Source of the DNA: Saururus chinensis
Taxonomy: Eukaryota > Streptophyta > Magnoliopsida > Piperales > Saururaceae
Assembly: GCA_035235625.1 (NCBI GenBank)
Contig: CP141146.1
Location: 18,904,501-18,968,500 of the forward strand
Direction: 5' to 3'
Length of the DNA stretch: 64,000 nt
Shown: positions 3,875 through 63,060 of the stretch, piece after piece
Position numbering within the stretch: position 1 is the first letter of the stretch
Layout: every line of letters starts with the position of its first letter
The notes under the pieces: generated by a model
Databases searched by the model: none
Told to the model about the DNA's origin: nothing
Seen by the model: the letters and a program-made list of their open reading frames with translations, nothing else
Translations under genes and position numbers: made by a program

Positions 3875-5060
3875 CAAGGTAGACCTTCCCCATCATCTTT
3901 ACATGGATAATTCTATTGTTAAAAATAAAAAGAAGTAAATTATTTACAAGCTCATGACACCTTATTAAGGATTTATGCTCTTGTTTTCTAGATAGAAGTC
4001 TGATAGGTTCCTTTAATTAGATCACTAAGACTCCAGTAGAATCTAAATTTTTAAGTCAACCGATGTTTAAGAAATCTCTTTTGAATTTCTATAATGAATT
4101 TGACTCGAGTTAATCATGATGTGTGCAAGTTTTTAAAATCAATGAATTATAACATCGAGCAAAAGAAAATCATAAATATATTTACTCTCCTTGGTGCATA
4201 ATTCTCTTAGTAAAGTACATTGACCACACAACATGGTAATTTCCACTTAATTGACAACTAACAATCTTCAAACTAAGAGCTGAAGATTTAAAAACAATAA
4301 AAACAAGCTATGAAACAAAAATCAACAATTAATTGTGTGTTTTTTTTAAAAAAAATTTTAATACAAATCCAATGAATAAAATCAGCCAAGAAAAACAAAG
4401 TAAAATGAAAACAAAAAGTAATAAAAACATGTGCACGTCCAAAAGATAGAAAGAATAACTCATGGACTTTTGACACATCATCTCTAAGTAGATATCTTCT
4501 CCTCCTTAGTCTTGCCTGGCCAATAGATCTAAAAGCAATTAAAGGGCTTCTTGCTGAGTTTTCCTATTTCATCCTTTAACGATTGAAGATCAATCTTTCT
4601 AATTCGCACTTTCTTCATGTTGTGAGCATAGACTTGGTGTGGCAACTTAGGGTGCTCATGTTTAAGGGTTTGCTTCTTCAACTTCCTTATTGGATTTGGC
4701 TTGTGGGGCTGGTTATTAGGGTGTTCAAACCTAGTGTAAAAGTCTTTATGGCATAAGTCACAAATCCTCACAGCACTAGTTTTCAATTTGATCATTTTCC
4801 CTCTTCTTGGCTTTTATGGGGTGGGCACTACCTTTGATGTGTGCATACTCTCCTTAGTTCTCACAAATGTAGCTGGTTTAGCATTAGATGTGTGCGTGGA
4901 TGACTTAAACCCTAATATCTTTTTATCCTATTAACAAATGCTAATCATGGTCTCTAGGGACTTCTTCCGACTCTTGCACCATTCTAGTTTCTCCTTCGAG
5001 TACACAAGTTCTTTTTTAAAAGCATTTAAAAATGCAGTGATCAACACATGAAACTCTTTT
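3875..5060 (-). mobile_element. Copia-like retrotransposon internal fragment (minus strand)
   Basis: This block matches a second copy that is itself split: 25.66-26.43 kb plus 29.41-29.76 kb. Shared phrases occur in the same order, including CCTTCCCCAT, GATGTGTGCAAG, ACTCTCCTT and TTCAAACCTAGTGT. In the second copy the sequence runs on into a Copia gag reading frame on the minus strand, which gives the orientation and superfamily. Only the region after gag is present here, with no reverse transcriptase or integrase seen. Confidence 0.55.
4529..4795 (-). pseudogene. Copia polyprotein remnant with a zinc-knuckle-like motif
   Basis: An 88-residue minus-strand reading contains CDLCHKDFYTRFEHP (about residues 12-26). 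This resembles the CxxC...GHTRFxC knuckle-like segment found downstream of gag in plant Copia polyproteins; the final Cys is not kept. A parallel degraded reading with CDIFHKDTHTRFECP lies on the minus strand near 29.50-29.55 kb in the second copy, where the second Cys is lost instead. The frame is short and has no complete flanking domains, so it is a relic. The assignment depends mainly on the second copy joining a recognisable gag. Confidence 0.45.
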
Positions 5061-11443: not shown

Positions 11444-12072
11444 CGTTATTAAAGTATTTTTCTTCTGTTATATGTAAAAAAGTGAAGAGTTTTTACTTTG
11501 TGTAGATTGGATAAATAAACAATATAATAAATAAAAAAGTTGTAGGTACGAATACAAGCGGTTTTTGAGATTTATGACGCAATAAAATGATCTTAAGGCA
11601 AACGATGCCTTATGAATTAATCACATTAATCCTATCTTAACACCCTATTCATCCACATGCCGAAATAAGACACGCGATTAACGCCCATCCACTCAGCTTA
11701 GTTTTGCATGAGTATTGACACGTGTGCCATGTCGGCTGCATAGGAGCACCGAGCACGTCCACCACAGAGGCGAGTGGGGCGCCAGCACCACCGGTCCAAG
11801 ACAGGGATAAAAGATTCTCCATGGGGGCATAACGGTCATTTCACATTTGGTCCAGTCAAACCTTCCCAAGCTGTGGGGGAGCCGCTGGTGGGCTCTGAAT
11901 CGCTGACAACGCGCAACCCAATGACAAAAAAACCGTCCCAAACCCGGTCCGGACTCGACCGTCATTTTAACAAAAGACGAGGGGAAGTCCCGTCCACTGG
12001 CTTCTTTAAAATCGACCTCCAGTTCCGTAGAGAGGGAACTGGACACTCCCAGTGGGCGAAAAGGGGACGAAA

Positions 12073-12101
12073 ATGGCGGAATGAGCACAAGGGCGAGATG
12101 A
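12073..12101 (+). promoter_or_regulatory. Two minimal upstream ORFs before the LONGIFOLIA-like start
   Basis: ATG at 12073-12075 opens a 3-codon ORF (MAE, stop 12082-12084). ATG at 12081-12083 opens a 6-codon ORF (MSTRAR) whose stop, TGA 12099-12101, overlaps the preferred main start ATG 12098-12100 as ATGA. If the transcript begins upstream of 12073, both would meet scanning ribosomes first and could lower or tune translation. The transcript start is not known. Confidence 0.5.
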
Positions 12102-14691
12102 CGTGTTTCGTGGAAGATCGGAGAATGACGGAGAAGGAGATGGAGAAGCAGATCGGCGGCTGCATGGCCGGATTCCTCAACCTCTTCGACCGTCACCAGC
12201 TCCTCGCCGGCAAACGAGTCTACTCCTCCTCCAAACGCCTGCCTCAGTCCTCGCCGGCAAGTTCTTTTCTGTATTCGTTTTGGTTTAGTTTTTGGTGGTT
12301 TCGTTTTGATTGTGGCGTTTTTTTTATGGGTTGTTTGTTTGGTTTGATCCAGTCAGTCGACTCGGCTTCTGGGTCGGTGGCGTCGGTGGAGTCCCCCCCG
12401 CCGACTCCCTTGAAGGAGGCTGATATTCCGGCGACGGTAGTGGAGAGACCAGATGTGGCCAAGAAGGTGGCGTCGCCGCTGCCGCTGCCGCTGCCGGTGT
12501 TCGAAGAGGGGCTGAGGTCGTCGTGGAAGCTGAGGGAGGCGCCGAGGTTGTCGTTGGACAGCCGTGTCGGAGGGAAGGCCCGGGTTGTGTACGCAAACCC
12601 GCCGGATCCCGCGAGGCATTCAGAGGTGGCTGATAAGCAGGAGCAGGGACGGCGGGCACTGGGGGTGGTGGCGCGGCTGATGGGTCTCGATGCGCTGCCG
12701 CCTGACGCCAGCGGGGAGGCGCCTAAGAAAGCAGAGCTCAGACGGTCGGCCTCGGAGTCCAGAGTTTCACGTTTTGTGTTCGACGGCAATTGCTTTCACT
12801 CTCCCGCAGTGACGGAAGCAGTGCCAGAGAGTCTAAAGGTTAGGAGTGACGAAATGCCCTCGGACGTTGCTAAGGCAAAGACGAAAGAGGCGGCCCTGGC
12901 CGCCGGTTGGCGATCTCCTCAGCAGCGGAGGAGCTTCTTCGATGCGCAAGACGTGTTTCCGCCGGAGCCGGCCAAGAAGGTGGCGGGAAGTTCCCTATTG
13001 GGGGAGATTGAGAAGAGGCTGAGGATGAGGGGGATTGATGAACAGGCTAGTGATTTGGAGACCCTGAAGCAGATCTTGGAGGCTCTCCAGCTGAAGGGGC
13101 TGCTCCATTCGGCGGCGGCAATGGAGAAGAGGAGAAATCTGGTCTTTGACGGGCGCCAGCCACGCCGGGCGGAGGAGAGCCCGATCGTTGTGATGAAGTC
13201 GGCAAGGTCACCGAGGAACCTGGTGGGGCGGAGGGCCTACGAGTGCTCGCCCCCTTCTTCACCGTCAAACTCCAAATGCCGCCCGGGAGTGGCCGGGCGG
13301 CGGGCGGAGGCAGTCTCGCCGCCTCCTGTGAGGGCGAATCGGACAGCAGGGAGAAGCTGCGGGATGGATAGCAATGTGAAGAGTCCCCGACGGATGATGA
13401 ATATCAATGTGGAGACACAGAAGAAACGGTCATCTTCTCCGAAGAGAGCCTGCTCGGATTCGACGGCCGTAAGTCCGTCCTCAAGGAATCGGAAAATGAC
13501 GCCGGAAAAGATCCGAATCCTTGCCGACGACGAGTCATCAACGACAATGTCAGAGAGCAACATCAGTACCTACTCACAGTTTGATGCTGAGGTAATGTGA
13601 AATAGCTCAAATTTTTTTGTTGAATCTGAAATAGAGATTGCTTCCTTTCCAAAATAGCCCAAATGTGTTGATGAAATGGACATTGAATTTGATCTGCAGA
13701 GGTTTTTAGTGGAGGATTACAAGGAGGGAAGGAACTTGTTGGAGAGGTGTGATAAGCTACTCCACAGCATTGCAGAGATAACAGCCAATGATCAGCCAAG
13801 CCCTGTTTCAGTCCTTGATGCTTCCTTCTACAAGGATGAGGGGTCACCCCCACCTGTTGCCATGAAGAGATGTCTTGATTTTAATGGTAAGTAGTCTTTC
13901 TTTCTTTTATTGCAGTTTTTCAGTTTGATACAATTTAATGCAAAATTGATATGCAGATTTGCAATTATTGTTGATTGCTTGCAATGGATCTGCTCCTATT
14001 TTAGTTGATGTACATTATGGTCCATGACTAGGTCAATTTCTTCATATCACCCAATTCTATTGCTTTAAATTTCTCAACAGAAGCTCTATTAGATGCTGAA
14101 GATGTTGAGCTGTGGAGCCCTGCAATTCGGTGGACGCCGGAGATACAATCCGACAAAGACGATTTCCTCTACGTGGCCGAGGTTCTCCGAGCCATTGGCC
14201 GTCTCCAACCTCCCAACCCCAACTGCAGTACCCGTCACTCAGAAATATTTACTTTCATAGAGAGAAGACTCTACTCCAGATTGGATTCATCCTCCAAGGC
14301 CGCCAAGCTCCACCGGAGGCTTATCTTCGACACCGTCACAGAAATCGTCGACAGGCAGCAAAATCCGAACTCATGGACGGCCTTCTCGGAGCCGCTCCCC
14401 AAGCCGGCAATGCAACAGCGGGCATGGGCCGAATTGGAGCGCATCCGGCGGCATGTCCCGGCAGAGGACATATGTGAAGTCATATGCGGGGTTTTGGGCA
14501 AGGACATGGTGGCCGGAGGGCCGGGCAGCTGGAGCGACCGGTCAGACGAGATGTCCGAGGCGGTCCTCGATATCGAGAGGCAGATTTTCAAGGATCTGGT
14601 GGGGGAGACAATCCAGGACCTGGCCGTCCTCCGCCCCAAATGGGAGGAGCGGCCACTGCCGGCGGCACTTAAGAGGAAGTTGGTCTTTTGA
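12098..14691 (+). CDS. LONGIFOLIA/TRM-family protein (four exons)
   Basis: Proposed exons are 12098-12260, 12357-13591, 13700-13886 and 14081-14691, with GT-AG borders and compatible phases, giving about 731 residues. Family members bind microtubules or the TON1-TON2-PP2A complex and promote polar cell elongation. Visible hallmarks, in order: N-terminal KQIGGCMAGFLNLFDRHQLL (residues 17-36); KLREAPRLSLDSR (about 110); VARLMGLD (about 158); an EIEKRL...LKQILEAL helix (about 270-305); SPIVVMKSARSP (about 329); QPSPVSVLD (about 497); and a C-terminal DUF4378-like region with FLYVAEVLRAIGRL (about 555), RRLIFDTVTEIVDR (about 606) and LDIERQIFKDLVGE (about 690), ending RKLVF. The start at 12098 leaves 16 residues before KQIG, close to Arabidopsis LNG1; ATG 12125 is the alternative. 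Exons are much more GC-rich than their surroundings. The open frame upstream to 11774 shows no family similarity and is read as leader or promoter. Confidence 0.9.
12261..12356 (+). other. Intron 1 of the LONGIFOLIA-like gene, open in frame
   Basis: GT at 12261 and CAG at 12354-12356 bound a 96-bp, T-rich intron. It has no in-frame stop and its length is a multiple of three, so retention would add 32 mostly aromatic and hydrophobic residues. Splicing is supported by the T-rich composition, the family's usual exon break after the first roughly 50 residues, and clean continuation into DSASGSVASVE. Confidence 0.75.
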
Positions 14692-23496: not shown

Positions 23497-24796
23497 ATTT
23501 TGAGAGTTTAATATCCATCTACTAATATAGTGGATCACTAGAGTGCCCCTAGTCCAATTATCTTAGAAAGATAGAGACTACAAGATGTGGCCTCTTTCTG
23601 TAGGTTTTAATTGCTGAAACAAAACTAAATTCTATGTGCAAACCTACTATAGATCTAACAATCAATCAACCACATAAACATGCATTCGCCATCATACAAG
23701 GATTTAACATGGAAAACCCAAAGCTGGTAAAAAACCACGGCAACCACACTAAGTTAAATCAATGCACAAAAACCAAGATCTTACAAGTCCAAAACAACCA
23801 ACCTTAACCCGACATACAAGAAACTTCTTTTCTTTATCTAGTCATTTGTTGTTGGCCTTCAAGCTTCTCCTCTGTGAACCCTTGAAGCTTCTTTGACACT
23901 CCTTGATGAAAAACTCCTCAGCAACTCCTTTTGTCTACGATGTGTTGTATGTGAACACTCCTCTTTAATTCATAAGAATCAAAACTCTCTCACCAACATG
24001 AACTTGAACTCAAATATGTGGCAATCAAGGAAAACTCTAGGTAATAAAACTCTCAATTTTTCCATCTCAAAAATTAGTTTTTCTCTCTTCTATTTTGTCC
24101 ATGTTTTGGCATTATATAGAGTCCCAAAACGATTAAGGTTAAAGGAACCCAAGTTTAGAATGACTCTATTTTGGAATCCTAAACTAGGCAACTAGTTCAT
24201 TAAATGATTGATCATTTTATAGGGCGATCGATTGTTCCCTATTACTTTAATGACCGAAACTCAAAGTGATTGATCTTTCATTCAACATATCGATTAATGT
24301 GTCCTAGGTTAGAAAATCTCAAAATTATTCATTAAATGATCAGTCCATTCACATAACATGTTCAAAACTAATAGATCTTTGAATTGTTTTTGTGATTTTT
24401 TTCACCCAAAATACTTCCTAAGATTATTTCAATGAAAACTGAAGTGTTTTGTGCACGTAAGTGTTTATAATAATTACCTCAAAGCATATACTCAATTCCG
24501 TCTTCAACCTTGAACTTTCAGAATGCATCCACTCATATTTTTCAAATATTTCAATTCCAAATTTGACTCGAACACATCACTAATCTAATTAGAACTTAAA
24601 GACTTAAACATACATTATGTTTTGACATAGTTTTTGTTCACCAAAATTAGAGTGGACTCTCTAAGACTCAACTAAGAACAATTGGAATTGATATTGAAAA
24701 GCCTCGAACCTATACTTAGTCTACACTCTTAAACAAAAATTAATTTGCATAGCATCATTTAATTAATTGTGAAGTAAACACATTCATTGATTTCCC
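23497..24796 (-). mobile_element. 3' LTR of a minus-strand Copia element
   Basis: On the minus strand a purine tract (AAAAGGGGAGAAATTATGG, about 24.80-24.82 kb) precedes the block, as a polypurine tract precedes a 3' LTR. Inside are a TATA-like site near 24.11 kb, GCGATCGATTG and TGATTGATC motifs near 24.2 kb, and the GGTTTT...GGGTTTTCCATGTTAA signature near 23.71-23.74 kb. The block resembles 34.47-35.25 kb over about 800 bp. The phrase at 23.50 kb (GAGAGTTTAATATCC) recurs at 31.05 kb on the other side of gag. Exact ends are approximate. Confidence 0.6.
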
Positions 24797-34400: not shown

Positions 34401-35260
34401 TCCACAAATTCTTAAAGCTCTTCTTTCATGTTTCATCTTCATATTCTTCTTGATGCTCAATCAAAGACTCATTTGATTGTTGTTCTCCATTTGAAGCTTC
34501 TTCAATACTCCTTGAAGAACTCCTCAGCAACTCCTTTTGTGTGTGATGTGTTGCATGTGAACAATTATATTTAATTCATAAGAATCAAAGCTCTCTCACC
34601 AACATGAATTGTACTCAAATCTTTGGTGATGAAGGAAAACTCTAGAGAATGAAAAACTCAAATTCCTTCTCAAAAATTGGTTTTCCTCCCTTCTATTTCG
34701 TAAATGCCTAGGCCTTATACAAAGTCCTAAAATAGTTAAAGTTGAAGGAACCCAAGTTTGGAATGACTATTCCAAAATCCTAAACTAGAAAACTATTTAA
34801 TTAAATGATCAATCATCTTGCATGACGACTGATTGTTCCCTATTACTGTGATGACCAAAACTCAAAGCAATCTTTCTCTCGATCAACCAATCGATCGATT
34901 GTTTCCTCAATTAGAAAATCTCAAAATTATTCATTAAATTGTTGATATATATGCATAACATGTTCAAAACCAATCAATCTATGAACTTTTTTGTGATTTT
35001 TTTCACCATATCTCTACAAAACACCCAAAATAGTTCCTAAGATTATTTTAATGAAAACCTAAGTGTTTTGTGCACGTGACTGTGTATAATGATTACCTTG
35101 AAGCATGCACTCAATTTAGTCTTAAACCTTGAATTTTTAGAATGTGTCAGTTCCTAGTTTTCAATTCCAAATCTGACTCGATCACATCACTAATCTCATC
35201 ACACCTTAAAGACTAAAACATATATGGTGTTTTGACATAGTTTTGTTCACCGAAATCAGC
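34401..35260 (-). mobile_element. Copia LTR, minus orientation
   Basis: Closely parallels 23.87-24.69 kb: CTCCTCAGCAACTCCTTTTG, AATTCATAAGAATCAAA, GGAACCCAAGTTTGGAATGA and AATCGATCGATTG. Ends with GTTTTGACATAGTTTTGTTCACC. Not coding. Confidence 0.6.
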
Positions 35261-44517: not shown

Positions 44518-45430
44518 CACTACAAGAAAAAGGACTATTAGTGACGCATAAAAAACGTTACTAAATGTGTCGATAAAAGTCCAGTCGCTAATGCTACTTA
44601 GCAACGCTTATGAAAAAGCATCACTAATAGTTACCAATTATCGACGCTTATCTTTGTGTCGCTAATATTAATTTTTTATGACACTTTATAAAGCATCACA
44701 AATAGCAAATTATTAGCGATGCTTATTGACATACATCACTAATAATTAATTATTAGCGATATTTTATAAATTGTCGCTAATATTAAAAAATTTTGAAAAA
44801 AATTAAAAACATTATAAGTGATGCTTATTTTCCCATCGCTAAAATGAAAAAATAAAAAAACTTATTAGTGACATTTTAATAAAAGAATAAATATAAAAAA
44901 TTTATTATATATAAAAGAATAAATATATAAAATTTATTATATATAAAAGAATAAATATATAAAATTTATTAGTTGGCGGAGCCGGTAGCTTGCGGATTCG
45001 GGGACAGCACACAGGGGAGAGGGTGGGGGGAGGTCGAGGGGTATATATACCGTGCAAGCAAAAATAATATTAGCAACGCTGATGAAAGTGTCGCTAATAA
45101 AATAAAATTAAAAAAAATATCTAAACGGTTATTATCTATCGAAGCCCCTAAGGGGGAGAGAAGAAGGGGAAGGAGCACCGGTCAGGGAAGAAGGCGGGGG
45201 TGGAGGGGCTCCTGCAAGAGGAGCCAGAGATTCTCCTCCAGCTAGATCCTTTGGCCGGTGGGTAGCAGTGGGGAGAAGAAGAGGGAGGAGGGGATCTAGC
45301 CGAAAGGATCCAATGCCCCTCCTCCAGCCAACTCATCTGGTCAGTGGGTCGAAGGCAGGGGAAGAAGAAGGGGGCAGGCGGGGGCAGGGACAGCAGTTGG
45401 CAGAGCCTGCAGCTTGCTGATCCAGGGACG
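44518..45430 (+). mobile_element. CACTA-type transposon 5' end (other end not found)
   Basis: Starts CACTACAAGAAAAAGG, a classic CACTA/En-Spm terminus. It is followed by about 350 bp of subterminal repeats built on short GTCGCTAAT, TAGCGATG and AGTGACG units in both orientations. It then runs into a purine-rich, GC-rich block (44.97-45.43 kb) bounded by an imperfect 34-bp direct repeat (44971-45004 and 45395-45428). No transposase was seen and no matching 3' end was found, so it is truncated or internally rearranged. Confidence 0.7.
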
Positions 45431-48100: not shown

Positions 48101-48733
48101 ACCTCATGTTCTTGTTATTCTTGTTAATTTTCTCATCTCTCTTCTCATATTGTTTTGCATTCTTAGAAGTTTTCCCTTTCCTTTCAACCTTGAAGTTATG
48201 ATTTCTTAGGAATTTTTTGAATTGTTTAGTCAACATGACTATTTGTTCATTATTACTCTCATCTTCAAAATCTTCATCCTCTAAGATTTTTAGTTCCTTG
48301 GTCTTCTTAGAAACTTTCTTTGAAGCTTTCAAAACACTTTGTTTCCCCTTGCCCTTCTAAAACACTTTTTTTATGATCATAAGAATCCTCTTGTATTTCA
48401 ATTGTTCTCAAGTTCCCTATCAATTCTTCAATGTCTATGGTGTCAATTTTTTAAATTTATTAATTGTAATAAACTTAATTTTAAATTTTGAAGACAAGGA
48501 CTAAGAATTTTTCTAATAACAAGATGGTCAACAATTGTCTACTCTAGTTGATCACAAGTATTAACTATATTTGATATTTTGACATAATATTCAAAAATTA
48601 TCTTATCCTCACTCATCGTGATGTTTTCAAACTCAAATGTTAACATTCTAAGCGAAGAGATTTTTACAACCTCTATTCCCTCATTGTACTTAGCCAATCG
48701 CTCGCATCCAATTTTAGCAGCTACATAAACCAA
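48101..48733 (-). pseudogene. Copia gag remnant (UBN2 and linker)
   Basis: On the minus strand, 48733-48539 reads MLTFEFENITMSEDKIIFEY and then KISNIVNTCDQLE, the UBN2 region of Copia gag. Farther on, 48332 to about 48105 reads MKASKKVSKKTKEL, DEDFEDESNNEQIVMLTKQF and KKFLRN, the acidic linker that precedes the gag zinc knuckle. Stops separate them and the knuckle is lost where an LTR fragment enters. It is a different copy from the gag at 29.65-30.87 kb. The UBN2 part is repeated at 52.79-53.04 kb by the tandem duplication. Confidence 0.65.
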
Positions 48734-48999
48734 ACAAACTGAAGCTAATAATATGGGATGAACTTTGTTTTCTGAATAGAGCTATTAATATAGGATGGAG
48801 AGATCATTGGCCAATTTCACAAATAAGGACTAATTCAAGTTTCTATAATTATTAAGTAGAACTAGGCAAGGCCCTATGGTGCCCTTGCTGACAATTATTA
48901 TTTGCAGACATATCTAAACGAAATTGTAATTATTATCACTGCTTTAAAAGTTCCTAAAAGAATAAATATAAAAAATCACTCAAGAAGGAAGGCATTCAT

Positions 49000-49470
49000 C
49001 ATCAAGGCCCCTCATGGATTTACCAATGAACCCTATCCTTTTCTTCTTCATCTTCTCTCTCTGTCTTAGAGTATCTTGTCCTCACAGTCCATACCCTTGC
49101 AACCATTCGCAACTAATGTGGCTTCCCAACAACTTTGGTTGGGGCTCCACCATATTCATTGGCCTCGTCATCCCTAACCAGGATTAGTGTCACGTCCCAT
49201 TCACGAGTAGCATACACTGGCATTGAAGAAAAGTACTGACTTATAGAAGATGGAAATGACTTGGCATTGTCACCTTTCCAGGGCACAAACTTTTCTTCTA
49301 TGGATGAAGGCGGCCTTCAGATGGATCAGGATGAGGATGAGGATGTAGATAGGTCATGAACTCATGATAGAGTTGGTGCTGTCTTGATTGGAGACCTAGG
49401 TAGCGTGAGAATGTCCTTTGCATTTTGTCCCACAGAAAAACACGAAACAAGGTGTGCATACTGCGTACTT
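49000..49470 (-). pseudogene. Unrecognised minus-strand gene fragment, copy 1
   Basis: The same sequence as 53.28-53.75 kb with small differences. Its frames correspond to the two overlapping minus-strand readings described there, and they are more broken here. Function unknown. Confidence 0.35.
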
Positions 49471-50000
49471 GTTATTAATGACGAAAGAGAAAGAAAAATG
49501 CTAGCCTGAAATTATCTGGTAGGCTTTGATACAAAGGAAAATATACATAATTAGCAAGGAAGCCAGAGCTATTTCAAGTTTTAATTAGAACATCTGAGAA
49601 AGCAACACTGTTTATGCTTTCAGTTTTTTTATATTATCTTCAAAATATCTTCCAAATTCAGTATGTATGTGATATTAATTATTAATTATTCTTTCGAATA
49701 TGGTTATTTGCTTCTAGCTGATTTGAGATAATCCAAAACTGATGTGAGTCCGGTTGGTCTACTCTACCCCACCATAAGAGAAATTGTGGGGAAGAACGGA
49801 TTGATCACATGGCTGATGTGCGTTGTTCTATTCGGTTTATGACACACAGGCCAGTGCTAAATGTGAAATCATTCACCGGAGACATGTAAAATATGTAAAA
49901 CCTATTGAACATTGATTGGAGCTATCCATGTGCCGAATGAGTATTTTTTATTTTTTACCGAAAATAAGTTTGGCATAAGTTACACATGGGAGCTATGCAT

Positions 50001-50111
50001 CCTCGAGAATGATGGCACACAAGTTAGAGCACATTAACGTAAATATCACTTGTACTAACATGTGTTGCTACTTATATTAATATGTGCTAATATGTATACC
50101 GTCAATCTTAA
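50001..50111. mobile_element. Small hairpin MITE
   Basis: Reads TCGAGAATGATGG at the left and CCGTCAATCTTA at the right, with nested TAACAT-, TGTGTT- and ATGTGCTAA-type inverted words. Copy at 54.24-54.35 kb. Related in style to the element at 11118. Confidence 0.4.
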
Positions 50112-50677
50112 ATAACTCCTATACATAACTTACATTTTGCTCATTGTTAGAGGAAACATGAAACTCTTCCCAGGTGGCCATTGCCTGTGCATTAACTGTG
50201 TTTAACATGCTTTGAAAATTAAAATATAAGGAGGTGAATGATTTCACATTTAACGGTGATCTATGTGCCATAAACCGACTAAAATTATGCACCAGACATG
50301 GTGGATCCGTTCCACTTGATAATTTCTCTACAACAGGCAATAAACTTTACAAATCTTAGGTGATTTTTTTTCAGGGACATATATAGAAGACAATATTTTG
50401 TAGTCATGGGCTCTATCCAACTGAGAAACACAGTTTGTGGGCTCCAGGTCACTTAAAGCGTGGCATGCTTTTCAAGTCTCGTGCTTAGCACGACTAGTGT
50501 TGGACCATACCATGATCTGCCCAAGGGATTCTTAGCCCATGGGAGTCTCAGCCCAAGGATTCTTTCATGTGTGTAACGAATGACAACTAATAAGTAGTTT
50601 CTTTTTTTAAAAGTTTTTAATACTCCCTATTCACCATGAGCTCAATATGAAAAAATATTTGAAAGCCGTTTATCTAT

Positions 50678-50762
50678 GAGATTGATGAAATACCCGCTAA
50701 CACAAGTTAATATTAGTATCACTGATGTTAACGTGCACTAATATATCTATCGTCGATCTTAA
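50678..50762. mobile_element. Small hairpin MITE
   Basis: TGAGATTGATG on the left pairs imperfectly with TCGTCGATCTTA on the right, with GTTAACGTGCACT inside. Copy at 54.94-55.02 kb; a closely similar one lies at 56084-56142 (GAGATCGATGACACA ... TGTGTCGTTGATCT). Confidence 0.45.
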
Positions 50763-51207
50763 AAATAAACGGTCCCCAAACATTTCTTACGTTAGCCTCA
50801 TAGTGTGCAAAGAGCATGAAAAACTCTTCATTCTTATTAGGGGCTGATGAGCTGAAGTACACTTCGAGACCACTTAAAGAAGGCTATATTCTTTAGATGA
50901 TGTCCGGAAGTTGAACAACTGCTCAGATCGCCTAGCCCTCTCATGTACTGACAAACAGCCTTGGACCATAATGTAACACTTAGTATTTACTGTGTTTATT
51001 TGTCAAAGTGAGCGTGCAATAGCACATCTTGCCATTAGATATTTATTAAAAATGTGTTGAGGGGAGGAGGTGAATATTTCATTACTCTTCACTAACGTAT
51101 ACCAAAAGAAAATTGTCTATACGAAACTATATGTAAAACTAAGTAAGTAAAGGTGGAAGGCCCCTAGACACTCCCTCAAATACTAATGTGGATAACCCTT
51201 TAAATTG

Positions 51208-52781
51208 CACTACAACAAAAAAAAATATTTTGTGATGCTTTTATTAGTGACGTTCACAAATTATCGCTAAAAGTTAGTAATTGTGATGCTACCAAAAAAA
51301 TGTCGCTAATTTTTTTTTACGATGTACAAGCATCACAAATAATTTTCATGCCCTAGCCATCAAACCTATTTGTGACTTTTACTAAGAAATGTCAACAATA
51401 ACTGCCCTAGTTGCAACGTTTAGTATTAAATGTTACAAATAGGTTCTAATTTTAGCTACACTTATACAAAAGGCAACAAATTACACATTCCCCCCGGCCC
51501 GGCCCCCGATTTGCAACATTTTGATAACGTCGCAAATATTTATGTATATTTGCGTCTTTTTTAAGTAAACATCACAATTATCTATGCTTATTGGTGACAT
51601 TTACTATGAAATGCCATGAATGATATATTATATTTACAATGTTTATTAAAAATGTTGCAAAGATACGTAGTTATTTGCAATATTTAAATCATAGTGTCGC
51701 AAATAACCAAGGTATTTGTGACGTTTATATGTAAACGTCGATAATAGTTTTTTTCCTAAACAATAAATAGTTTTATTATATAATATATCGAATTGTGTTA
51801 ACATAAATATACTATATACATTTATATTAGTTTAAATATATGTTATGTGGGTTGAAGAAATTACTTTAATTTTTTTTGCATAATTATATATTATGTATTT
51901 ATATATTGAAATATTAAATGAGGAGCTTACATAGGTCTGTCGTGATTGCCATGGGAAGTGTCAACCTTTATGAGTTGGCATGTCGCGAGTACCTACAATC
52001 CGCAAATGTCGTTATCACTATAGTTACATGAGGGCATGCGACTTATTCACCTGTTTGACCAGTATTATTGTCATCATTGATGATATTCAAACAAGTACAT
52101 AACTCAATGGTATAGAGAGGTACATGTTCTCTACTTTGAATGAGGACATATATGTGTACATCTCTTGGACGACTAGTATTTACTCAAAACTCCATTTCTA
52201 ATGTAAAATTTTTAAAGTTCTCTACTTTTGAACTTGGAGATTCCTCCTAGTCCTGTAGGCCATGCCCCACATAAATTGTGTTTTCCTCAAAATGGCATCA
52301 ATGAGTGCCCCCTCCCCTCCCAATCTCCTGTGCCTACTTCTTGCCTACCTTTTCCACAAATCCTATGTTTGCCTCTGCCATTGTATGCTAAGATAAAAAT
52401 GTTGCAAATGGTTCATGACACCGGAAAATGGTGCTCATGGCTTATTTACAATATTTTACAGGAAGCATCGTGAATATTATATGTTATTTATAATATTTTA
52501 TTATAAATATCTTAAATAATTATCTTATTTGCGATGTTTTAAAGGAATATTGTTAATATTGTATAGTATTTGCAATATTTTCTATAAAACGTCACAGATT
52601 AGAAACGTCGCAGATTAGAAAAGTTTGTGTTTGGACGAGCTCTGATCATAAGGAAATGGATACTTTCATGCATGTTTGCATAGAATTTGTAGTCATAGAG
52701 GCATAGACAGATGTGATTGAGTGGAAGGAACTTGTGGTTGAAATTGCATGTGGTGAAAATATATGTTCAAAGTTTCTTTGC
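51208..52781 (+). mobile_element. CACTA element, 5' part only, with captured intron scrap
   Basis: Starts CACTACAACAAAA and is followed by short subterminal units (GTGATGCTTTTATTAGTGACGT and ATTTGCGAT-like words). The same left flank (CTCAAATACTAATGTGGAT) precedes the copy at 57003. From 52620 it jumps to sequence equal to 58843-58975, the intron of the captured TOM40 fragment, skipping exon 1. No 3' end is present. Confidence 0.75.
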
Positions 52782-53279
52782 AATAACCTTAATTTTAAAT
52801 TTTGAAGACAAGGACTAAAAATCTTTTTAATAACAAGATGGTCAACATGCAATTGTCTACTCTAGCTGATCACAAGTATTAACTATATTTGATAATTTGA
52901 CATAATATTCAAAAATTGTCTTATCCTCACTCATCGTGATGTTTTCAAACTCAAATGTTAACATTTTAAGCCAAGAGATCTATTCCCTCATTGTACTTAG
53001 CCAATCGATCCCTTCCAATTTTAACAGCTATATAAATCAAACAAACTAAAGCTATTAATATGGGATGAACTTTGTTTTCTAAATAGAGCTATTAATATAT
53101 GACGGAGATATCATTAGCCAATTTCACAAACAAGGACTAATTCAAGGCCCTATGGTATTGCCCTTGCTAACAATTAGTATTTGCAGACATATCTAAATGA
53201 AATTGTAATTATTATCACTGCTTTAAAAGTTCCTAAAAGAATAAATATAAAAACTCACTTAAGAAGGAAGGCATTCATC

Positions 53280-53750
53280 ATCAAGGCCCCTCATGGATTT
53301 ACCAATGAACACTATCCTTTTCTTCTTCATCTTCTCTCTCACTCTCATAGTGTATTGTCCTCACAGTCCCTACCCTTGCAACTATTCGCAACTGACGTGG
53401 CTTCCCAAACAACTTTGGTTGGGGCTCCACCATATTCATTGGCCTCGTCATTCCTAACCAGGATTAGTGTCACGTCCCATTCACGAGTAACAAATACTGG
53501 CATTGAAGACAAGTACTGAGTTATGGAAGATGGAAATGAGTTAGCATTGTCACCTTTCCAGGGCACAAACTTTTCTTCTTTGGATGAAGGCGGCCCTCAG
53601 ATGGATCAGGATGAGGATGTAGATAGGTCATGAACTCATGATAGAGTTGGTGCTGTCTTGATTGGAGACCTAGGTAGCGTGAGAATGTCCTTTGCATTTT
53701 GTCCCATAGAAAAACACGAAACAAGGTGTGCATACTGCGTACTTGTTATT
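53280..53750 (-). pseudogene. Unrecognised minus-strand gene fragment, copy 2
   Basis: Two overlapping frames look like one protein with a frameshift. The first (53733-53521) has FSRYLGLQSRQHQLYHEFMT and YLHPHPDPSEGRLHPKKK. The second (53566-53345) has MPWKGDNANSFPSSITQYLS, FVTREWDVTLILVRNDEANE and APTKVVWEATS. The composition is unlike the AT-rich flanks and suggests former coding sequence. I do not recognise the family. Its presence in both duplication units shows it predates the duplication. Confidence 0.4.
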
Positions 53751-54239
53751 AATGACGAATGAGAAAGAAAAATGATAGCCTGAAATTATCCGGTAGGTTT
53801 TGATACAAAGGAAAACATACTAATTAGCAAGGAAGCCAGAGAGCTATTTCAAGTTTTATTTAGAACATCTGAGAAAGCAACACTGTTTGTACTTTCAGTT
53901 TTTTTATATTAACTTCAAAATATCTTCCAAATTCAGTATGTATGTGATATTTTTATTAATTATTCTTTCGAATATCGTCATTTGCTTCTAGCTGATTTGA
54001 GATAATCCAAAACTGATGTCAATCCGGTTGGTCTACTTTGCCCCACCATAAGAACGGATTGACCACGCGGTTGGTGGCCGTAGTTCTAGCTGATAGATCA
54101 GTGTTAAATGTGAAATATGTCACAGGAGACATGTACAATGTGTAAAACCTATTGAGCATTGAGTGGAGCTATGCATTACGTAGCCGAAAGAGTTTTTTTT
54201 CACTGACCCGGCGTAAGTTACACATGGGAGTTGTTCATA

Positions 54240-54349
54240 TTTGAGAATGGTGGCATACGAGCTAGTACATATTAGTATAAATATTACTTATATTAACGTA
54301 TGCTGATACTTATGCTAACATACGTCAACACATGTACCATGGATCTTAA
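54240..54349. mobile_element. Small hairpin MITE (unit 2 copy)
   Basis: Duplicate of the element at 50.00-50.11 kb. Confidence 0.4.
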
Positions 54350-54938
54350 ATATTAATAGCTCTTATACATAATTTACATTAGGCCTATTGTCTGAGGACT
54401 CATAAAAAAAATTTTCTATGTGACGTTAACTCTCTTTAACATGTTTTGCACATTAAAATGTTAGGATGTGAGTGATTTCATATTTAACAGTGATCTATGT
54501 TCCATAAACCGACTAGAATTATGCACTAGCCATATGCTGTATCCGTTCCACTTAGATAATTTATCTACAACAGGCAATAAATTTTTCAAATCGTAGGTGA
54601 TTTTTTTTTCAGGAGCAGAAGACAATATTTTGTAGACATGGGCTCTATATATCCAACTGAGAAATACAGTTTATGGGCTTCTGGTCAACTTAAAGCGTGG
54701 CATGCTTTTCCAGCCTCGTGCTTAGCACGACTATTGTTGGCCTGTTGGGACATACCATGATCAGCCCAAGGGATTCTTAGCCCATGGGAGTCTCAGCCCA
54801 GGGACTCTTCCATATGTGTAATGAATGTGTAATGAAAGACAACCAACCAGTAGCTCTTTTTTGAAAAAGTTGTTAATGCTCTCTACTCATCATAAGCCTA
54901 GTATAAAGAATGCTTAAGAGTCGTTCATCTATGAAATT

Positions 54939-55022
54939 AATGGCACATATACTAACAATTCATTAGTTAGCATCAGTATCACTGACACTAATATATATCA
55001 ATGTGTACATTATCAATCTTAA
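54939..55022. mobile_element. Small hairpin MITE (unit 2 copy)
   Basis: Duplicate of the element at 50.68-50.76 kb. Confidence 0.4.
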
Positions 55023-55429
55023 AAATAAACAGTCCCTAGGCATTTCTTATGTTGGCCTCAGAACATGAAAACTCTTCCCTTCTTATTGGGTGCCGATGAG
55101 CTAAGTACACTTCCAGACCACCTAAGGAGGGGGCTGTATTGTTCGGATGATGTCCGGACTCCCAATGATCTTACTTGCAGAAATGACACTGACAAATTTG
55201 GTGAGGGTACGCCGTGAAACCTATGTTACGAAGTTGAACCAGTGCTCAGATGCCTAGCCCACTTTGGTATTGACAAAGACAGCCTTGATGTAACACTTAC
55301 TATTTACTATGTTTGTTTGCCAAAATGAGCGTGCAATAGCATATGTTGGCATTAGATATTTATTAAAGATGTGTTGAGGAGGTGAATATTTCATCACTCT
55401 TCACTAACGTATACCAAAAGAAAATTGTT

Positions 55430-57002
55430 CTGTGAGAGCAATGGATATTTAAGTAGAAATATGAAACTAAGTGAATTAAGGTGGTCAATTCCTTCTTTCC
55501 TTTGTTGTTACTTGTCTATACGAAACGATATGTGAAACTAAGTAAATGAAGGTTAAATTTTTTACTGTGAACAAACAGTAAGTAATAATTTGGCAAAGTA
55601 AAACACCGTCCAATATGATAAATTTATTATATAAATATTTGTAAGAAAAAAGTACATATGTATGAGTCTAACTATTATCTGTTGCTTATTAAACGAACTT
55701 TGAAGTACCTACCTATTATCCGTTGCAAAGTGTTGTTTATTATACGAATTTTGACATTTAGGAAGCAACAAGCCATTAGTTAGGTTGTGAATTACCTAAT
55801 TGGCTTTGTGTTGCCTATGGATAAACCATTTTTTTTTAGAAAAGCAGATAAGGTTTTAACTATGATTATATTCCCTCTATCCAACACTAATAGTCTTATT
55901 AATATGGGAATACTATGATGACCAACAAAAACTTTTTGTTCAATCATGATGATGAATACTTTGATGATAATGTTAATATGGCAAAAAGCACATGAATAAA
56001 TGTGTTGATGTGTGGGAAGTGTTTTCTATATTCCCCATTCTCCGTGAGCCCAGCGTAAGGAATGCATATTAAGCATTTATCCATGAGATCGATGACACAT
56101 ACATTAACGTGCACTTACGTGTGTGTCGTTGATCTAAAATATCAATATTTTTGAGTGTTCCTTATGCTAGGCTCATGGAAAGTGGGAGCATAGAAACTGC
56201 TTCCTTATGGGTGAAGGTGAATAGTTTATGTCATAGTCTTAATTTTAAATTTTATTTTTAGAATTCATCAAGAAGTCAAAACACAAATAAACTATTTTAA
56301 TGGTTTAAATACAAAACAAAAGGCATCAATTATGTGAATACCCATGCTATGATTGTTGTTTTTTCACACATACGGTTAACAAAACACATACATAAATTAC
56401 ACGATTATTACTTTTACACAAGCTAAAATTTATTTTGCAAGCTACAAAATGTCACAAAAATACAAATGTCATACAGAAAATTGCACTAAACATGTCTGCA
56501 CACCAACCTTCACTAGGGATACTTTACCTTTGTTGTGGTTGTGCTCACACTAAACCCTCTAAAGTTGGTTCCCACAGCCAAAAGAACCTGCACCACTGTG
56601 ATGCATTACTCTATCAAAGTATACTTAGTAGAATCAAAAACTGTAATTAAACACATTATGGTAAAGTTAATTAGTTGTACCTGCCATCTTTTAAAATAAC
56701 ATCATTTTCATTTCACGGACTATGAAGTAAATCATATATACAACTACCTTTAGATGCTTCCCTTTTAAGATACACATTTTATCCCCATGATCATCAGCTA
56801 CTCCACCCTTAGAGCATGCTGTTAAAACTAAACTACACCCCTTGGAGTTAAATCAAGTCTCATTAGACTAGCGGCCAACTCCCTATGTATTCAAGGTGAA
56901 GGCCCATGCCATGCTACTCATGGACACTAGACCAAGGTGTCAAACCCCATGAAGCCCCTAGACACCCCCCTCAAATACTAATGTGGATGACCCTTTTAAT
57001 TT
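55430..57002. other. Sequence mostly absent from unit 1; one small MITE, otherwise unassigned
   Basis: Most of this stretch has no counterpart in unit 1. A hairpin MITE is at 56084-56142. The last 60 bp (from about 56.94 kb) is shared again with unit 1 and forms the left flank of the CACTA element. Short ORFs lack motifs. Confidence 0.5.
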
Positions 57003-58406
57003 CACTACAACAAAAAATGTTTTTTGCAATGCTTTTATTAGAGACTTTCACAAAACATCGTTAAAAGTTACAAATTATAATGCTACCAAAAAATGTAGTT
57101 AACATTTTTTTAACAACATTCAAGCAACCCAAATATTTTTCAAGCCCTAGCCATCAAATCTATTTGCAACGTTTACTAAGAAATGTTGCCAATAACTGCC
57201 TTATTTGCAACATTTAATATTAAATATCGCAAATAGGTTCTATTTTTAGTTACACTTATACAAAAGTGTTGTAACAAATTGTTCATTCCCCCAGGCCCCC
57301 TATTTGTGATGTATTGATAATGTTGCAAATATTTGTGTATATTTGCAACTTTTTAAAGTAAATGTCGCAATTATATATGCTTATTAGTGGCATTTACTAT
57401 AAAATGTTGCGAATGATATATTATATTTACAATGTTTATTATATCATAGCATCGCAAATAACCAAGATATTTGTGACGTTTATAAGTAAACATTGCTAAT
57501 AGTTTTTTTCTTAAATAATAAATAGTTTTATTATACAATATATCAAATTGTGTAACATAAATATACTATATACATTTATATTAGTTTAAATATATGTTAT
57601 GCAGGTTGAAGAAATTAATTTAAATTTTTGTATAATCATATATTATGTATTTATATATTGAAATATTAAATGAGGAGCTTACATAGGTCTGTCATGATTG
57701 CCATGGGAAGCGTCAACCTTTATGAGTTGGCACGTCGAGAGTACCTACAATCTACAAATGTCGTCATCACTATAGTTACGTGAGGGCATGCGACTTATTC
57801 ACCTGTCTGACCAGTATTATTGTCATCATTGGCAAGTACATAACACGACTCAACAGTATAGAGAGGTACATGTTCTCTACTTTTGAATGAGGATATATAT
57901 GTGTACATCTCTTGGATAACTAGTATTTACTCAAACTCCATTTCGAATGTAAAATTTTAAAGTTCTCTACTTTTGAACTAGGAGATTCCTCATGTCTTGA
58001 GGGCTACGCCCCACATAAATTTTGTGTTTAACCCAAAATGGCATCAATGAGTGCCCCCTCCCCTTCCAATCTCTAAATCCTATGTTTGCATCTGCCACCC
58101 TCTGCTAATACAAAAATGCCACAAACAATTCATGACACCGGAAAATGATGCTCCTACTCATGGCTTATTTAAGATGTTTTACTCAAGCATCGCAAATATT
58201 ATATGATATTTCATTATAAACATAATAAATACTTAAATTATTTGTAATGTATTAAAGGAAATGTTGTTCATATTTATATGGTATTTGCGACATTTTCTAA
58301 AAAACGTCACAAATACTTGTTTAAAAACGTCGCTAATATATATCTATTTGCGACGTGTCGCTAATACTATGAGCCATTTTCTCCCGCCACTCTCCCATCT
58401 CCCTTT

Positions 58407-58747
58407 TTGAGCCTCCGCCCCTCCCCCCTCTCTGAGCCTGGTTTGCAAGCTGACAGCGCCCTCCTTGGCCAGCTCCCGTCTTCTTCTATCCGACCACCAC
58501 CCCCCTTTTGCCCGATATCGCCCTCGACTAGTTTTTGGGTTAGAAAGTCTGAGTCTTTGGAATGTTTTGGTAGTAAAAATGGGGCTTCCGTCAGCCATGC
58601 CGCGCCCCCTCCGCCTCCTACCCCTCTGGACGTCGTGCCTCGTCAACCCAGCGCACGAGGAAGTGAAAGCAAGTCCTCCGAGAAAGTCGACTACTTGAAC
58701 CTCCCTTGTCCCCCACCATTCGAGGAAATTCAGCGGGAATCGATGAG
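58407..58747 (+). pseudogene. TOM40: Captured TOM40 exon 1 fragment
   Basis: The plus-strand frame contains SHAAPPPPPTP and then EKVDYLNLPCPPPFEEIQRE (about 58.68-58.74 kb), a near match to the conserved N-terminal segment of plant TOM40, the beta-barrel pore for protein import in the mitochondrial outer membrane. The likely original start, ATGGGG at 58579, is out of this frame by one base, which suggests a small deletion. At the 3' side the expected donor region reads ATGAGG; the nearest GT (58748) leaves a phase that does not join exon 2 cleanly. The open frame runs upstream to 58407 without family similarity. It is a captured piece, not a working gene. Confidence 0.75.
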
Positions 58748-59149
58748 GTTGTCTATGATGTCCTTTATCCTTGTCCTCTTTCCTTTCTTCTTTTGTCCAA
58801 TTTAAAAGTTATACATTTTCTTTGTTTTAACTTTGGCATCGAAAAGTTTGTGTTTGGACGAGTTCTGCTCATAATGTATTGGATACTTTCATGCATAGAC
58901 AGATGTGGTTGAGTGGAAGGAACTTGTGGCTGAAATTGCCGGTGGTGAAACTATATGTTCAAAGTTTCTTTGGATGAGGAAGTTATCGGAAGTTATTTGA
59001 ATTTTGATCGTCGTATTTAATACAGCAATGGCTTGTGAACTTTGGCTGCTAAAATAAATTTGTTGCTTGTGTTGATATCCGCAGCTGATTTCAGGGCTTA
59101 ATATCTACTTTGTCTAAAGCATTTTCCTTTTGACGCGTGATTGCTCAAG

Positions 59150-59231
59150 TGTCACTGAAGCCAGAACTCTTTGAGGGAATGAGGTTTGATTTCACCAAGG
59201 GACTAAACCCCAAATTTTCTCTCATCCACAG
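59150..59231 (+). pseudogene. TOM40: Captured TOM40 exon 2
   Basis: Reads SLKPELFEGMRFDFTKGLNP and KFSLIH, which continue the TOM40 sequence directly after exon 1 of the family. Its donor (CACAG followed by GTATGT) is intact and at the phase where plant TOM40 would continue. The acceptor side is less clear. None of the beta-barrel exons follow within the element, so the captured part covers only the N-terminal tail and the first strands. Confidence 0.75.
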
Positions 59232-60136
59232 GTATGTTGGATTTACACGTATTGGCAGTGTGCCCTTCTTCTCCTGTCGCCACAGGTTCGTTTTCATTCT
59301 TTTTCTGTTTTTTTTCGCTTCCCTTCTTTCGTCTACTCGATCCTTGAAATTGGGTTGTGCGTTTTTTTTCTTTGCTGCAGGTTCTGCCTCCGAGATATTG
59401 TCTGAATTCCGGTAATTTTATGAAATACACTAATCTTATGATTGCTTTTGAGGCTTCTGTTGGGAATATTCATTACACGGTCCAGTGTGTAGTTAGATGT
59501 TTGCTTGAAGATTTGTAGCTGTGGTAACTCATTTGTGTTCAAACCTTTCATCTGGCTATATGAAAATATCTACGTTCTCATATTTTCATGATCAATTTCT
59601 ATTTGGTTATAAAATCTCTTGAATAACTTAAACTGCTTTGAGTTGGAAGTAGGTTTTGCAAACAGATGTTACGAGTTGGCCCTTGTTTGTCTCTAATTAA
59701 TCAAGTTCAGAGAGAAAAATCTAATCAATCCTGGTCTCATGTGGGAACAAGTGGATTTCCTGATCCATTTTATATTGATAGGGTTTTCTCTTTGCTTTCT
59801 GCATATATTACAACTCTACAGCTTCTGATTTGTATGTCTATTCTATGGTGGTGATATACCTGTTATTTTTACTTTAAGCAGAGGATTTTTTTGTTATCTT
59901 TGTTGTTGGTGATATAATCGCTAGCTTGATGAAGCAAATATCTTTAGAATCCACCCTTTTCATGTGGGTTTGCAGAAGCTGACCTTGTTTAAATTGAATT
60001 TTCTTCTTCTTTGGGATCGGATTGCACTACACAGTGTTTGCTCAGAGTGGTTAGTTCTGATTTGCATTTGCAGTAGTATGAGCTGTTGATAATCGTCGCT
60101 TGTGTTTTCTTTATGCAGTGCTAAGAAGTTCTCTTT

Positions 60137-61988
60137 ATGCAGATTAGTTCCATGTCTCCTGCAGCACTTAATTCAGCTCTGAATGATATGACTTCCATAA
60201 TCACACTATCAGACATACTAGTGGAGTCTGAATCTGGAAATGGATTTGGAGAAGAGGTGGAGGAAGACTTGGCAACTATGGCAAGATCAGAAATACAAGC
60301 AGGGAATTCTACGGCATCATCTGATGGGAATGATTCAGCAACAATGGAAATTAGGTGAGAACAAAATCTTGTCTCCTTGAATCTGTTATCATTGTTTCTT
60401 GATGTGGGTAGTGGCAGTATTAAACAATCAAGGACCCATGATTCACTTGACTTGGAACCAACCGCAATATCTAGGACGAAGAGGCAATTAGTTCAGGTAC
60501 AATGGTTGTTCACATGTTTTATTTTTTATTTACTTGAGGGGGGGTCATGGTTTTTTCTTAACATCTGATATGGTTGTTCCTGGTCAACTTGATCTGAATC
60601 AATCTTCAATCCCTTTTGACACTTTAAGAAAACTTTTTCTGGAATACTGAATGTTATGACCAGGCTACGTACTTTGGAGTACTTGTTTCTTGTTTAAATA
60701 TTTAGCAAGGAACTTAATGCCCACAATGTATCAGGACTAAAAGGATAAGTTGAACCTGGATAGAAGTTGTACTTAGTTAGATTCAATCATTTTTAATATA
60801 TATGTATACTGTTAGCTTTTTAAAAAATGCTTGTAGAATCTATATGAGCATGGCAATGATTCTAAAGTCTTAAAAATATATTATCTAATGTACATGTTGC
60901 AGAGTTGGGAAAAAACTATAGACTGCTACAGCCCTGGGCAAGGACTGATGCCAGCAAGTTACAAAGTTAGGATTGTACCTCTTGACGGAAACAAAGAAGC
61001 ATTTGGGGAGGTTCTTGATCCAGATTTTGGGGAGTCAGCAATTGGCCTTGTTGCACTAGTTGATTCTGGTGAGCTTACAATGGTGCTTACAAATAATTTT
61101 CTTTCGAATTCTTGAGCTGCAACTTACATATTCCGAAGTACAATGTTCTCTTAATCACCATGCCCCTTTGATAATATATTAACCATAAACTTCATGAGAA
61201 GTATATACAATGAGCAGCCACTAGCAACATAATAGTAGCATGATCATCTCTTGAAACTTTCATGTTTACTTACGTAGTAGCTTTCATGCATGTCTTCAAC
61301 TTTAGTCTGTGCTTAATACGTTGTGCTCTGAATTTTGCTGTCTTGCAAACCTTTTTGGATATGTAATCTCTGTAGAATATTTTAAAATAGTATAAAGTCT
61401 GATTTCGATTTAAGCTCTTGGCTTTTGCCGAATTCTGAATGTAAGAAACCGGCTGCTAATTGGGTGACCCACCCCAGGAAGTCTGCTTACACTAATAGTC
61501 TTGATCAACCCAACCTCAAACGCAAATAACAACCATGAATCAAGTAGGAAACAACAGTAAGATCACATATATTACTATTCAGATTTAGTAGATATTAATA
61601 TTCAGATTTAGTAGATGGAATCATGCAAACATTTTTCTGATGTTGGAGATGGAAACGTGGTTGATAGTGATTAAGAGCTTATGGATACAAAGACAGTTTC
61701 AGGAAGAGGAAGTAAGGCCGGCTCTAGTTTCACCTCAAAGGGTTCTACTCTGAGGTAGTTTATGCATTTTAAGTTTCTAGTTGATCAGTTAAATAGTCAA
61801 CTTTATGTGTCTTGAAAGTAATGTAGTTTTGCTGTGAGGGGGGTATTGACAGAGGAAAGATGAACAAAAATTGACTAGTTTGGCTCTTTATGGTATTTCT
61901 GGCAGGTCAATGCGTGTATACCGGATTGCTAAGAGCTTGCCGGAAGATTTATCAGACTAAGGGGAGGATGATCCACTTGATTTACTAG
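60137..61988 (+). CDS. Unrecognised multi-exon gene fragment inside the CACTA element
   Basis: Four exons with GT-AG borders and fully compatible phases: 60143-60354, 60418-60496, 60903-61068 and 61906-61988 (stop TAG 61986-61988). They encode about 180 residues. Segments include [20 protein letters not shown], an acidic Ser-rich stretch, [60 protein letters not shown], and the C-terminal [18 protein letters not shown]. An ATG at 60137 or 60152 could start it, or it could be spliced to upstream exons: the TOM40 exon 2 donor, and a possible small exon at 59382-59412 reading GSASEILSEF. I do not recognise the family. An open frame kept across three introns implies recent capture or selection. 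Transcription would start from the captured TOM40 5' region or the element. Confidence 0.5.
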
Positions 61989-62714
61989 ACCGGAAAACGA
62001 CTAAGTCAGCTCTACAGACTACAATCCTTTAAGAAACTCAAGTGAAAGCTTGAACCTGATAATGATGTAGCGATAGACTTTGAAGGGCATTTAGTAATCT
62101 ATCGGCTGCCTTTTTACATGTGATTTTCATAAAACCATGTTTATTGATCTAAGTTAGAAATTTTATTTTCATTTTATTAAGAATAATAATGTATGCCCCA
62201 AATTTTTTAATAATTTTGTGCCTCCAAATTTTGTTATGAATGAAATAATAAATGTAATATTTTTTCCGTTTAGTGTATCTTCAAATTTTACTATACTCAG
62301 CTATGTTATTTATTTTATTTTTATGATTTTTTTATTAGTGATGCTAAATAAATATCATTAATAATCATGTTAGTGACGTTTTGTATAAAACTTTGCAAAT
62401 GTGTATGGTTTGTCAAAACCCCAAGTATTAGCGACGTCTTAATACAAACGTCACTAATAGTTTACTATTAGGGACACTAAGTACAAAGCGTCACTAAAAT
62501 ACAACATATCAGCCACACTTATTACAATGTTGCTAATAGAAATAACTATTAATGACATAAAGTAAAATGTTGCTAATAGAAGAATTAGCCACTCAAAAAT
62601 ATCACCAATACCTATGTGTGACATATATTAAAACATCATGTAGAATTATTAGTGATGCTAAAAAAAGCATCACTGAAGGTTCTTTTTAGCGATGCTAGTA
62701 TTTTTGTTGTGGTT

Positions 62715-63060
62715 TAGTATTTACCTAAAACTAGTTAAAATCTATTTTTTTGCTAGTTTTTTTGTTGCAATTTAAAGGTTTTGTTCAAGATTAATGTCTC
62801 AAAACTTTTAAAATCACTCTAACCAATTATTTATACTTAATTATAAGTGATTTGTGTATGTAAGTTTGTGTATCACACCTTCAAACCTTCAACAATCAAT
62901 GAAGTCTTCATCATTTAACTTTCTTATTTTTCAATTTTTTAAATTCCAAATCTGGCTTAACCACAACCAAATCTAATCAGACTCTAAACACTAAAATTGT
63001 TCATGAAGTTTTGACATATTTTTTATAATTAAAATTATATAATTATATTACATATGCCGT
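62715..63060 (-). mobile_element. Copia LTR fragment
   Basis: Phrases such as AAATCTGGCTTAACCACAACC, GACTCTAAACACTAAA and GTTTTGACATA parallel 35.16-35.24 kb and 24.55-24.63 kb. This suggests the CACTA element lies beside, or inserted into, an LTR of that family. Confidence 0.4.

Follow-up and report, generated by a model that had tools for sequence, protein, structure and literature searches.

A probable defunct Pack-CACTA transposon with fragments of five genes in Saururus chinensis, and the recurrence of its inner chimera at other loci

On contig C7 of the Saururus chinensis genome, two exons of TOM40 lie between sequences that resemble the ends of a CACTA transposon. The question raised by this locus is whether it represents a transposon that has taken up pieces of genes, as a preliminary description of the sequence had it, or a TOM40 gene with chance resemblances at its sides. 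We analyzed a window of 64,000 nucleotides (C7:18904501-18968500; positions given without a contig refer to this window) against the 516 Mb genome, which comprises 11 contigs. The genome searches scored the best candidates only, and all copy counts below are lower bounds. Our analyses indicate that the element, extending from 57003 to about 62758, is very probably a defunct, non-autonomous CACTA transposon of the Pack-CACTA type, assembled stepwise at the DNA level and carrying its gene fragments as cargo.

The left end of the element provided the firmest starting point. A CACTA-type 5′ terminal inverted repeat (TIR), CACTACAACAAAAA, is located at 57003..57016 (+), and this position is a true terminus, because two relatives with unrelated left flanks begin at the matching place. 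Specifically, L040 (C7:37.83 Mb) has the TIR exactly and a different left flank, and L041 (C11:27.15 Mb) has it with two mismatches and an unrelated left flank. The adjoining 5′ subterminal region (57003..58366, +) contains repeats of the motif TATTWGYGACGTTT in both directions. With up to three mismatches and both directions counted, the motif had 108 matches in the whole window, versus 25.35 ± 5.34 (maximum 40) in 100 shuffles. Within the element, 26 matches were in 57003-58366, 12 in 62330-62760, and 2 in the intervening 3.96 kb, with densities of 19 per kb in the 5′ region and 0.5 per kb in the interior. Subterminal repeats are hence present at both ends, as expected of a Pack-CACTA element. 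The CACTA-type 5′ end and the dense subterminal repeats that had first drawn attention to the locus are both upheld by these data.

Between the ends we identified fragments of five genes, in the order TOM40, PA200, MED15, alkaline/neutral invertase, and RRP12. All are in sense orientation with their introns kept, and capture therefore took place at the DNA level. For each fragment the same genome contains a parent or a locus resembling one, on C1 (TOM40), C4 (PA200), C8 (MED15), C11 (invertase), and C2 (RRP12). The borders of the fragments come from a whole-element genome search together with local BLAST on fetched loci. The BLAST blocks overlapped by 2 bp between MED15 and invertase and by 4-5 bp between invertase and the C2 repeat that follows it, and such block edges may overrun by chance.

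The TOM40 fragment (58407..59280, +) comprises the 5′ untranslated region, exon 1, intron 1, exon 2, and the start of intron 2, and its N-terminal exons lie at about 58.6-58.75 and 59.15-59.23 kb, where they had originally been reported. The preliminary description had proposed a search for the parental gene, and this gene was found at C1:67.29 Mb. Its matching part (L009, C1:67296834-67297765) is identical at 91% of 860 aligned sites, with a Kimura two-parameter (K2P) distance of 0.096, and it is accompanied by further exons that span most of the barrel (Porin_3, E 2.3e-56, exons joined by eye). In contrast, TOM40 matches in L001, which covers the window from 55503 to just beyond its end, are confined to the two N-terminal exons. 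An ordinary chromosomal TOM40 locus, the outcome named beforehand as telling against a transposon, is thereby excluded. We found no support for such a locus with CACTA-like ends arisen by chance, and with the barrel exons on C1 and a motif count above that of all 100 shuffles, we regard this as extremely improbable.

The other four fragments follow downstream. A filler at 59281..59367 (+), whose junction with TOM40 is common to 11 other loci (see below), leads to the PA200/PSME4 fragment (59368..59785, +), consisting of an exon end (to about 59411, by eye) and the next intron. Its source, L027, matches at C4:16322548-16322805 (90%, K2P 0.114) and C4:16322885-16323042 (92%, K2P 0.080), and the joined exons of L027 match the Pfam family HEAT_PSME4_mid (9.5e-7) via exons downstream of the captured piece. 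From its position, the captured exon presumably belongs to the same PA200 gene as those exons. A second filler (59786..60030, +) comes next, and portions of 59693-60019 resemble repeats located on C4, C11, and C10. The C-terminal MED15 fragment (60031..60817, +) contains one exon end, two more exons, and introns, and is 86% identical over 780 aligned sites (K2P 0.154) to L010 (C8:29284109-29284906), which may not be the parent itself but a copy that has diverged from it. This fragment had no match in Pfam, NCBIfam, or PDB, and its name comes via a weaker match (39%, E 5.4e-6) at C7:4.4119 Mb, within a Q-rich gene that has a KIX_2 exon, one of three genomic KIX_2 matches, about 11 kb upstream on the same strand.

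The invertase fragment (60816..61200, +) consists of one exon (60903-61068) with flanking introns. It matches Glyco_hydro_100 in Pfam (1.4e-13) as well as PDB (1.5e-7), and its source, L011 (C11:35907544-35907935), is identical at 90% of 385 aligned sites (K2P 0.113). A repeat at 61197..61567 (+) separates this fragment from RRP12, and the other matches found to it, seven besides itself, are confined to a cluster at C2:19.4-20.9 Mb. The last fragment (61591..62098, +) contains C-terminal exons of RRP12, for which the source-like loci L012 (C2:43.47 Mb) and L013 (C2:11.33 Mb) are identical at 85% and 82% of aligned sites (K2P 0.168 and 0.214). The RRP12 piece had no match in Pfam or NCBIfam, and its identity comes from a PDB match (6e-27) of the joined exons of L013. 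L012, the closer of the two to the element, is seemingly frame-broken downstream, and the C-terminal exon of L013 is open, as judged by eye.

These assignments enlarge the earlier inventory of TOM40 and a second gene to five genes, with PA200 lying between TOM40 and MED15. The single orientation of the pieces was correctly seen (all are on the + strand). The four exons at 60.1-62.0 kb, however, had been ascribed to one unrelated gene, and a search for its parent had been suggested; matching loci do exist, on C8, C11, and C2, but they represent three genes instead of a single parent.

The right end proved harder to place. The 3′ region (62113..62758, +), a block common to L028 and L020, has subterminal repeats at 62333-62660. 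A TIR-like site with 12/14 agreement to the 5′ TIR occupies 62701..62714 (−) and is followed by TAGTA, and the preliminary description had taken it as the 3′ terminus. We doubt this because relatives align past 62714 and carry a TIR-like site further on. The alignment of L038 runs on to 62720, those of L035, L036, L039, and L028 extend about 10 bases past 62714 with many transitions, and later TIR-like sites were seen in L038 (ATTTTGTTGTAATG) and L044 (ATTTTGTTGCAGTG), each with 12/14 agreement. One 3′-end alignment of the relatives was poor, and the 3′ end was placed using the other alignments. The site ending at 62714 is thus probably internal. Modest evidence, from alignment and inspection by eye, suggests that the family's 3′ terminus would correspond to a decayed site near 62758, about 44 bp further on, with a probable decayed 3′ TIR at 62745..62758 (−) as the equivalent of the relatives' TIR-like site.

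We found no transposase in the element, in agreement with the initial impression of the locus. Specifically, tblastn with three Transposase_21 domains of the same genome gave no match in 57003-62758 at E values up to 10, while a positive control was found, and Pfam searches with part of the 56 open reading frames of at least 40 amino acids in the element yielded none. Among the Transposase_21 matches listed for the genome (152, with 150 of 231 candidates scored), none lies inside the element. One of them, at C7:35520564, is located about 6 kb upstream of L044 (C7:35.52 Mb), a 3′ end with the same repeats and a 12/14 TIR, and other Transposase_21 copies in the genome have open frames. One of the genome's CACTA transposases would have mobilized the element in trans; the element is probably old and immobile, and its 3′ TIR would have decayed after the movement.

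Part of the order in which the element was assembled could be reconstructed. The junction between RRP12 and the 3′ region is common to L020 (C11:32.81 Mb, K2P 0.224), while in L028 the 3′ block occurs but RRP12 is absent; this would make the joining older than the split of the element and L020. Within the stretch fetched, L020 has none of the other four gene pieces. RRP12 would accordingly have been joined first to the 3′ region, and the TOM40-PA200-MED15 block and the invertase piece would have been added later, most likely via repair synthesis that switched templates at homologies of a few bases during excision or gap repair. A local tandem duplication would have copied the 5′ part of the element. 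This duplication pairs 48464-52780 with 52778-58972 (82% over 2.5 kb, and 81% in the CACTA 5′ part), and its second unit has about 1.5 kb extra, at 55430-56953. The incomplete copy (51208..52780, +) contains the 5′ part of the element and a piece of the TOM40 intron, with 51160-52599 and 52618-52780 corresponding to 56954-58314 and 58841-58972. TOM40 must have been in place before the duplication, because the duplicated 5′ part includes it. K2P distances between the two units were 0.145 for the CACTA part, 0.091 for the middle of that part, and 0.146 for the longest stretch outside it.

The same element could have gained its cargo by another route, in which two nearby CACTA insertions with complementary terminal losses were re-mobilized as one unit and took along the DNA between them. 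This is the Pack-CACTA model in PMC8903248 and PMC13317346. The window does contain two further CACTA 5′ ends in the same orientation, at 44518 and 51208, but the latter is the tandem-duplication copy. Moreover, the five sources are on five contigs and their pieces form consecutive blocks, such that a separate round of flanking insertions would be needed for each, and the inner chimera was also found where no CACTA ends were seen. We consider this route possible, if rather doubtful.

The chimera in question is not private to the element. Its TOM40/filler junction (59280) is present at at least 11 other loci: L014-L019, L022, L023-L025, and C6:30.365 Mb, the last of these known from the search table only and the other ten fetched. 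In L023-L025, a deletion or insert is followed by PA200 sequence (59412-59541 or 59396-59541), and the wider TOM40-PA200-MED15 block, reaching MED15, is present at seven loci (L014-L019 and L022). Around the ten fetched loci we detected no exact CACTA terminus and a single match to the subterminal motif (in L016). A search with two mismatches over these loci (86 kb) returned five TIR-like sites, one each in L014, L016, and L023 and two in L025, which we take as chance. Because the flanks inspected cover 3.1-4.4 kb per side, and just 0.9 and 0.2 kb in L025, CACTA ends may lie further out.

It is quite possible, although we lean somewhat the other way, that the TOM40-PA200-MED15 block of this element was assembled outside CACTA, in another transposon or as a repair patchwork, and entered later. 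The recurrent junction and the lack of CACTA termini around the fetched loci speak for such an origin. On the other hand, the element has the longest TOM40 and MED15 pieces found, and at both borders these extend further into parental sequence. A tree built from the element and the seven wider copies, with the merged parental sequences of TOM40 and PA200 as root, placed the element as sister to the seven (support 0.993). Among sites at which the seven agree and the parental state is known, 24 are derived in all eight, seven in the others only, and eight in the element only; additionally, a 4-bp deletion is common to the seven. Given its sister position and its longer pieces, the element is not a truncated derivative of the seven wider copies. 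That the chimera was assembled once and then reached at least 11 other loci lacking detectable CACTA ends, with new fusions gained on the way, is an idea that we advance tentatively and consider unlikely on present data.

Two further observations concern these loci. Directly after the MED15 piece, six of the seven wider copies (all but L014) pass into further shared sequence, a next fusion step. Long inverted repeats of the Mutator-like element type were sought around the block and rejected at nine of the ten fetched loci, which had just short pairs at chance level. The exception is L024, where a 107-bp inverted repeat (76%, E 1.6e-14; 2456-2562 and 4106-4207) encloses the TOM40/PA200 piece and may represent another kind of transposon or a pair of repeats that face each other.

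Several points weigh against a Pack-CACTA transposon with inert cargo. The 3′ TIR is poor (10/14 near 62758), and the element is bordered by AATTT on the left (before 57003) and by TTTTT on the right (after 62758). Target-site duplications of CACTA elements are commonly taken as 3 nt. Here the duplication is unproven, since the 3-nt comparison (TTT/TTT) falls inside a T-run and a 5-nt comparison, at the length given in PMC8903248, disagrees (AATTT/TTTTT). The Transposase_21 frame beside L044 is broken (two TGA, one TAG), and inspection of the 4 kb upstream (L043) yielded no 5′ TIR. A second complete 5.7 kb copy with different flanks, for which a search had been advised at the outset, was not found in the genome, again as a lower bound. 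Template switching is a step that we infer. Finally, under predicted splicing the MED15 and invertase exons form one open frame of about 150 codons in three predicted exons, although inert cargo would have no need to stay open.

This last point bears on whether a functional chimeric gene, such as a MED15-invertase fusion, could have been kept by selection, for the predicted frame continues across the MED15-invertase border. Yet for MED15 plus invertase the nonsynonymous divergence (dN 0.115), set against the synonymous (dS 0.15), gives no sign of constraint on this frame, and relative to L011 the invertase exon carries an Arg-to-Leu and a Pro-to-Leu replacement. The TOM40 and RRP12 parts are broken, the former by a 1-nt deletion beside the start codon and a change of the exon-1 donor from GT to GG, the latter by two frame changes and three stops. 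We thus judge a selected gene very improbable, and the captured pieces most likely constitute cargo that has no function as protein.

Elsewhere in the window, we noted another CACTA 5′ end, CACTACAAGAAAAA, at 44518-45100, which contains 13 matches to the subterminal motif within 0.6 kb, has the same orientation, and is probably of another subfamily. Open frames at 11744-13600 and 14032-14691, with a VARLMGL motif (1.8e-9) and DUF4378 (8e-18), presumably represent a LONGIFOLIA/TRM-like gene. A repeat pair is located at 23882-24650 and 34491-35259 (78% identity over 0.79 kb).

The preliminary description could not place the chimera among known systems, but its kind can be placed: the element is a new instance of the Pack-CACTA/Tgm-Express1 kind. 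That CACTA ends can capture several genes together with their introns is already known (PMC8903248, PMC1947982, PMC13317346), and PMC8903248 reports capture from multiple loci, in maize chiefly for Pack-CACTA. Tgm-Express1 of soybean (PMC1947982) is likewise of the CACTA family, 5.7 kb in length, and contains fragments, exons as well as introns, from five unrelated genes. It differs in residing in a flower-colour gene (a mutant allele) and in having chimeric transcripts detected by reverse transcription PCR, whereas the element here has a decayed 3′ end, is read from sequence alone, and has a chimeric part that recurs at at least 11 other loci. As for Pack-CACTA and Pack-TYPE elements (PMC8903248), it is a non-autonomous TIR element with coding DNA, with the differences that its target-site duplication is unconfirmed and that one complete copy was found. 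Stepwise capture of gene fragments also recalls the gene-capturing Helitrons of maize (PMC3288121), from which its subterminal repeats and CACTA-type 5′ terminus set it apart, although no search aimed at Helitron hallmarks was made. Title listings, to which our literature search on this point was limited, contained no title on a TOM40-bearing CACTA chimera.

What the element offers is a well-resolved capture of five genes whose sources, or loci resembling them, are present in the same genome, together with a partly reconstructed succession of gains and a chimera that is shared outside the element. The recurrence of the inner chimera at other loci is the part that is unusual relative to known Pack-CACTA capture, and comparison of the 12 chimera loci could help decide whether Pack-type elements gain DNA by re-mobilized neighboring insertions or by template-switching repair. 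If the chimera did spread outside CACTA ends, gene-fragment chimeras would move from one mobile vehicle to another of a different kind or would propagate on their own as templates for repair.

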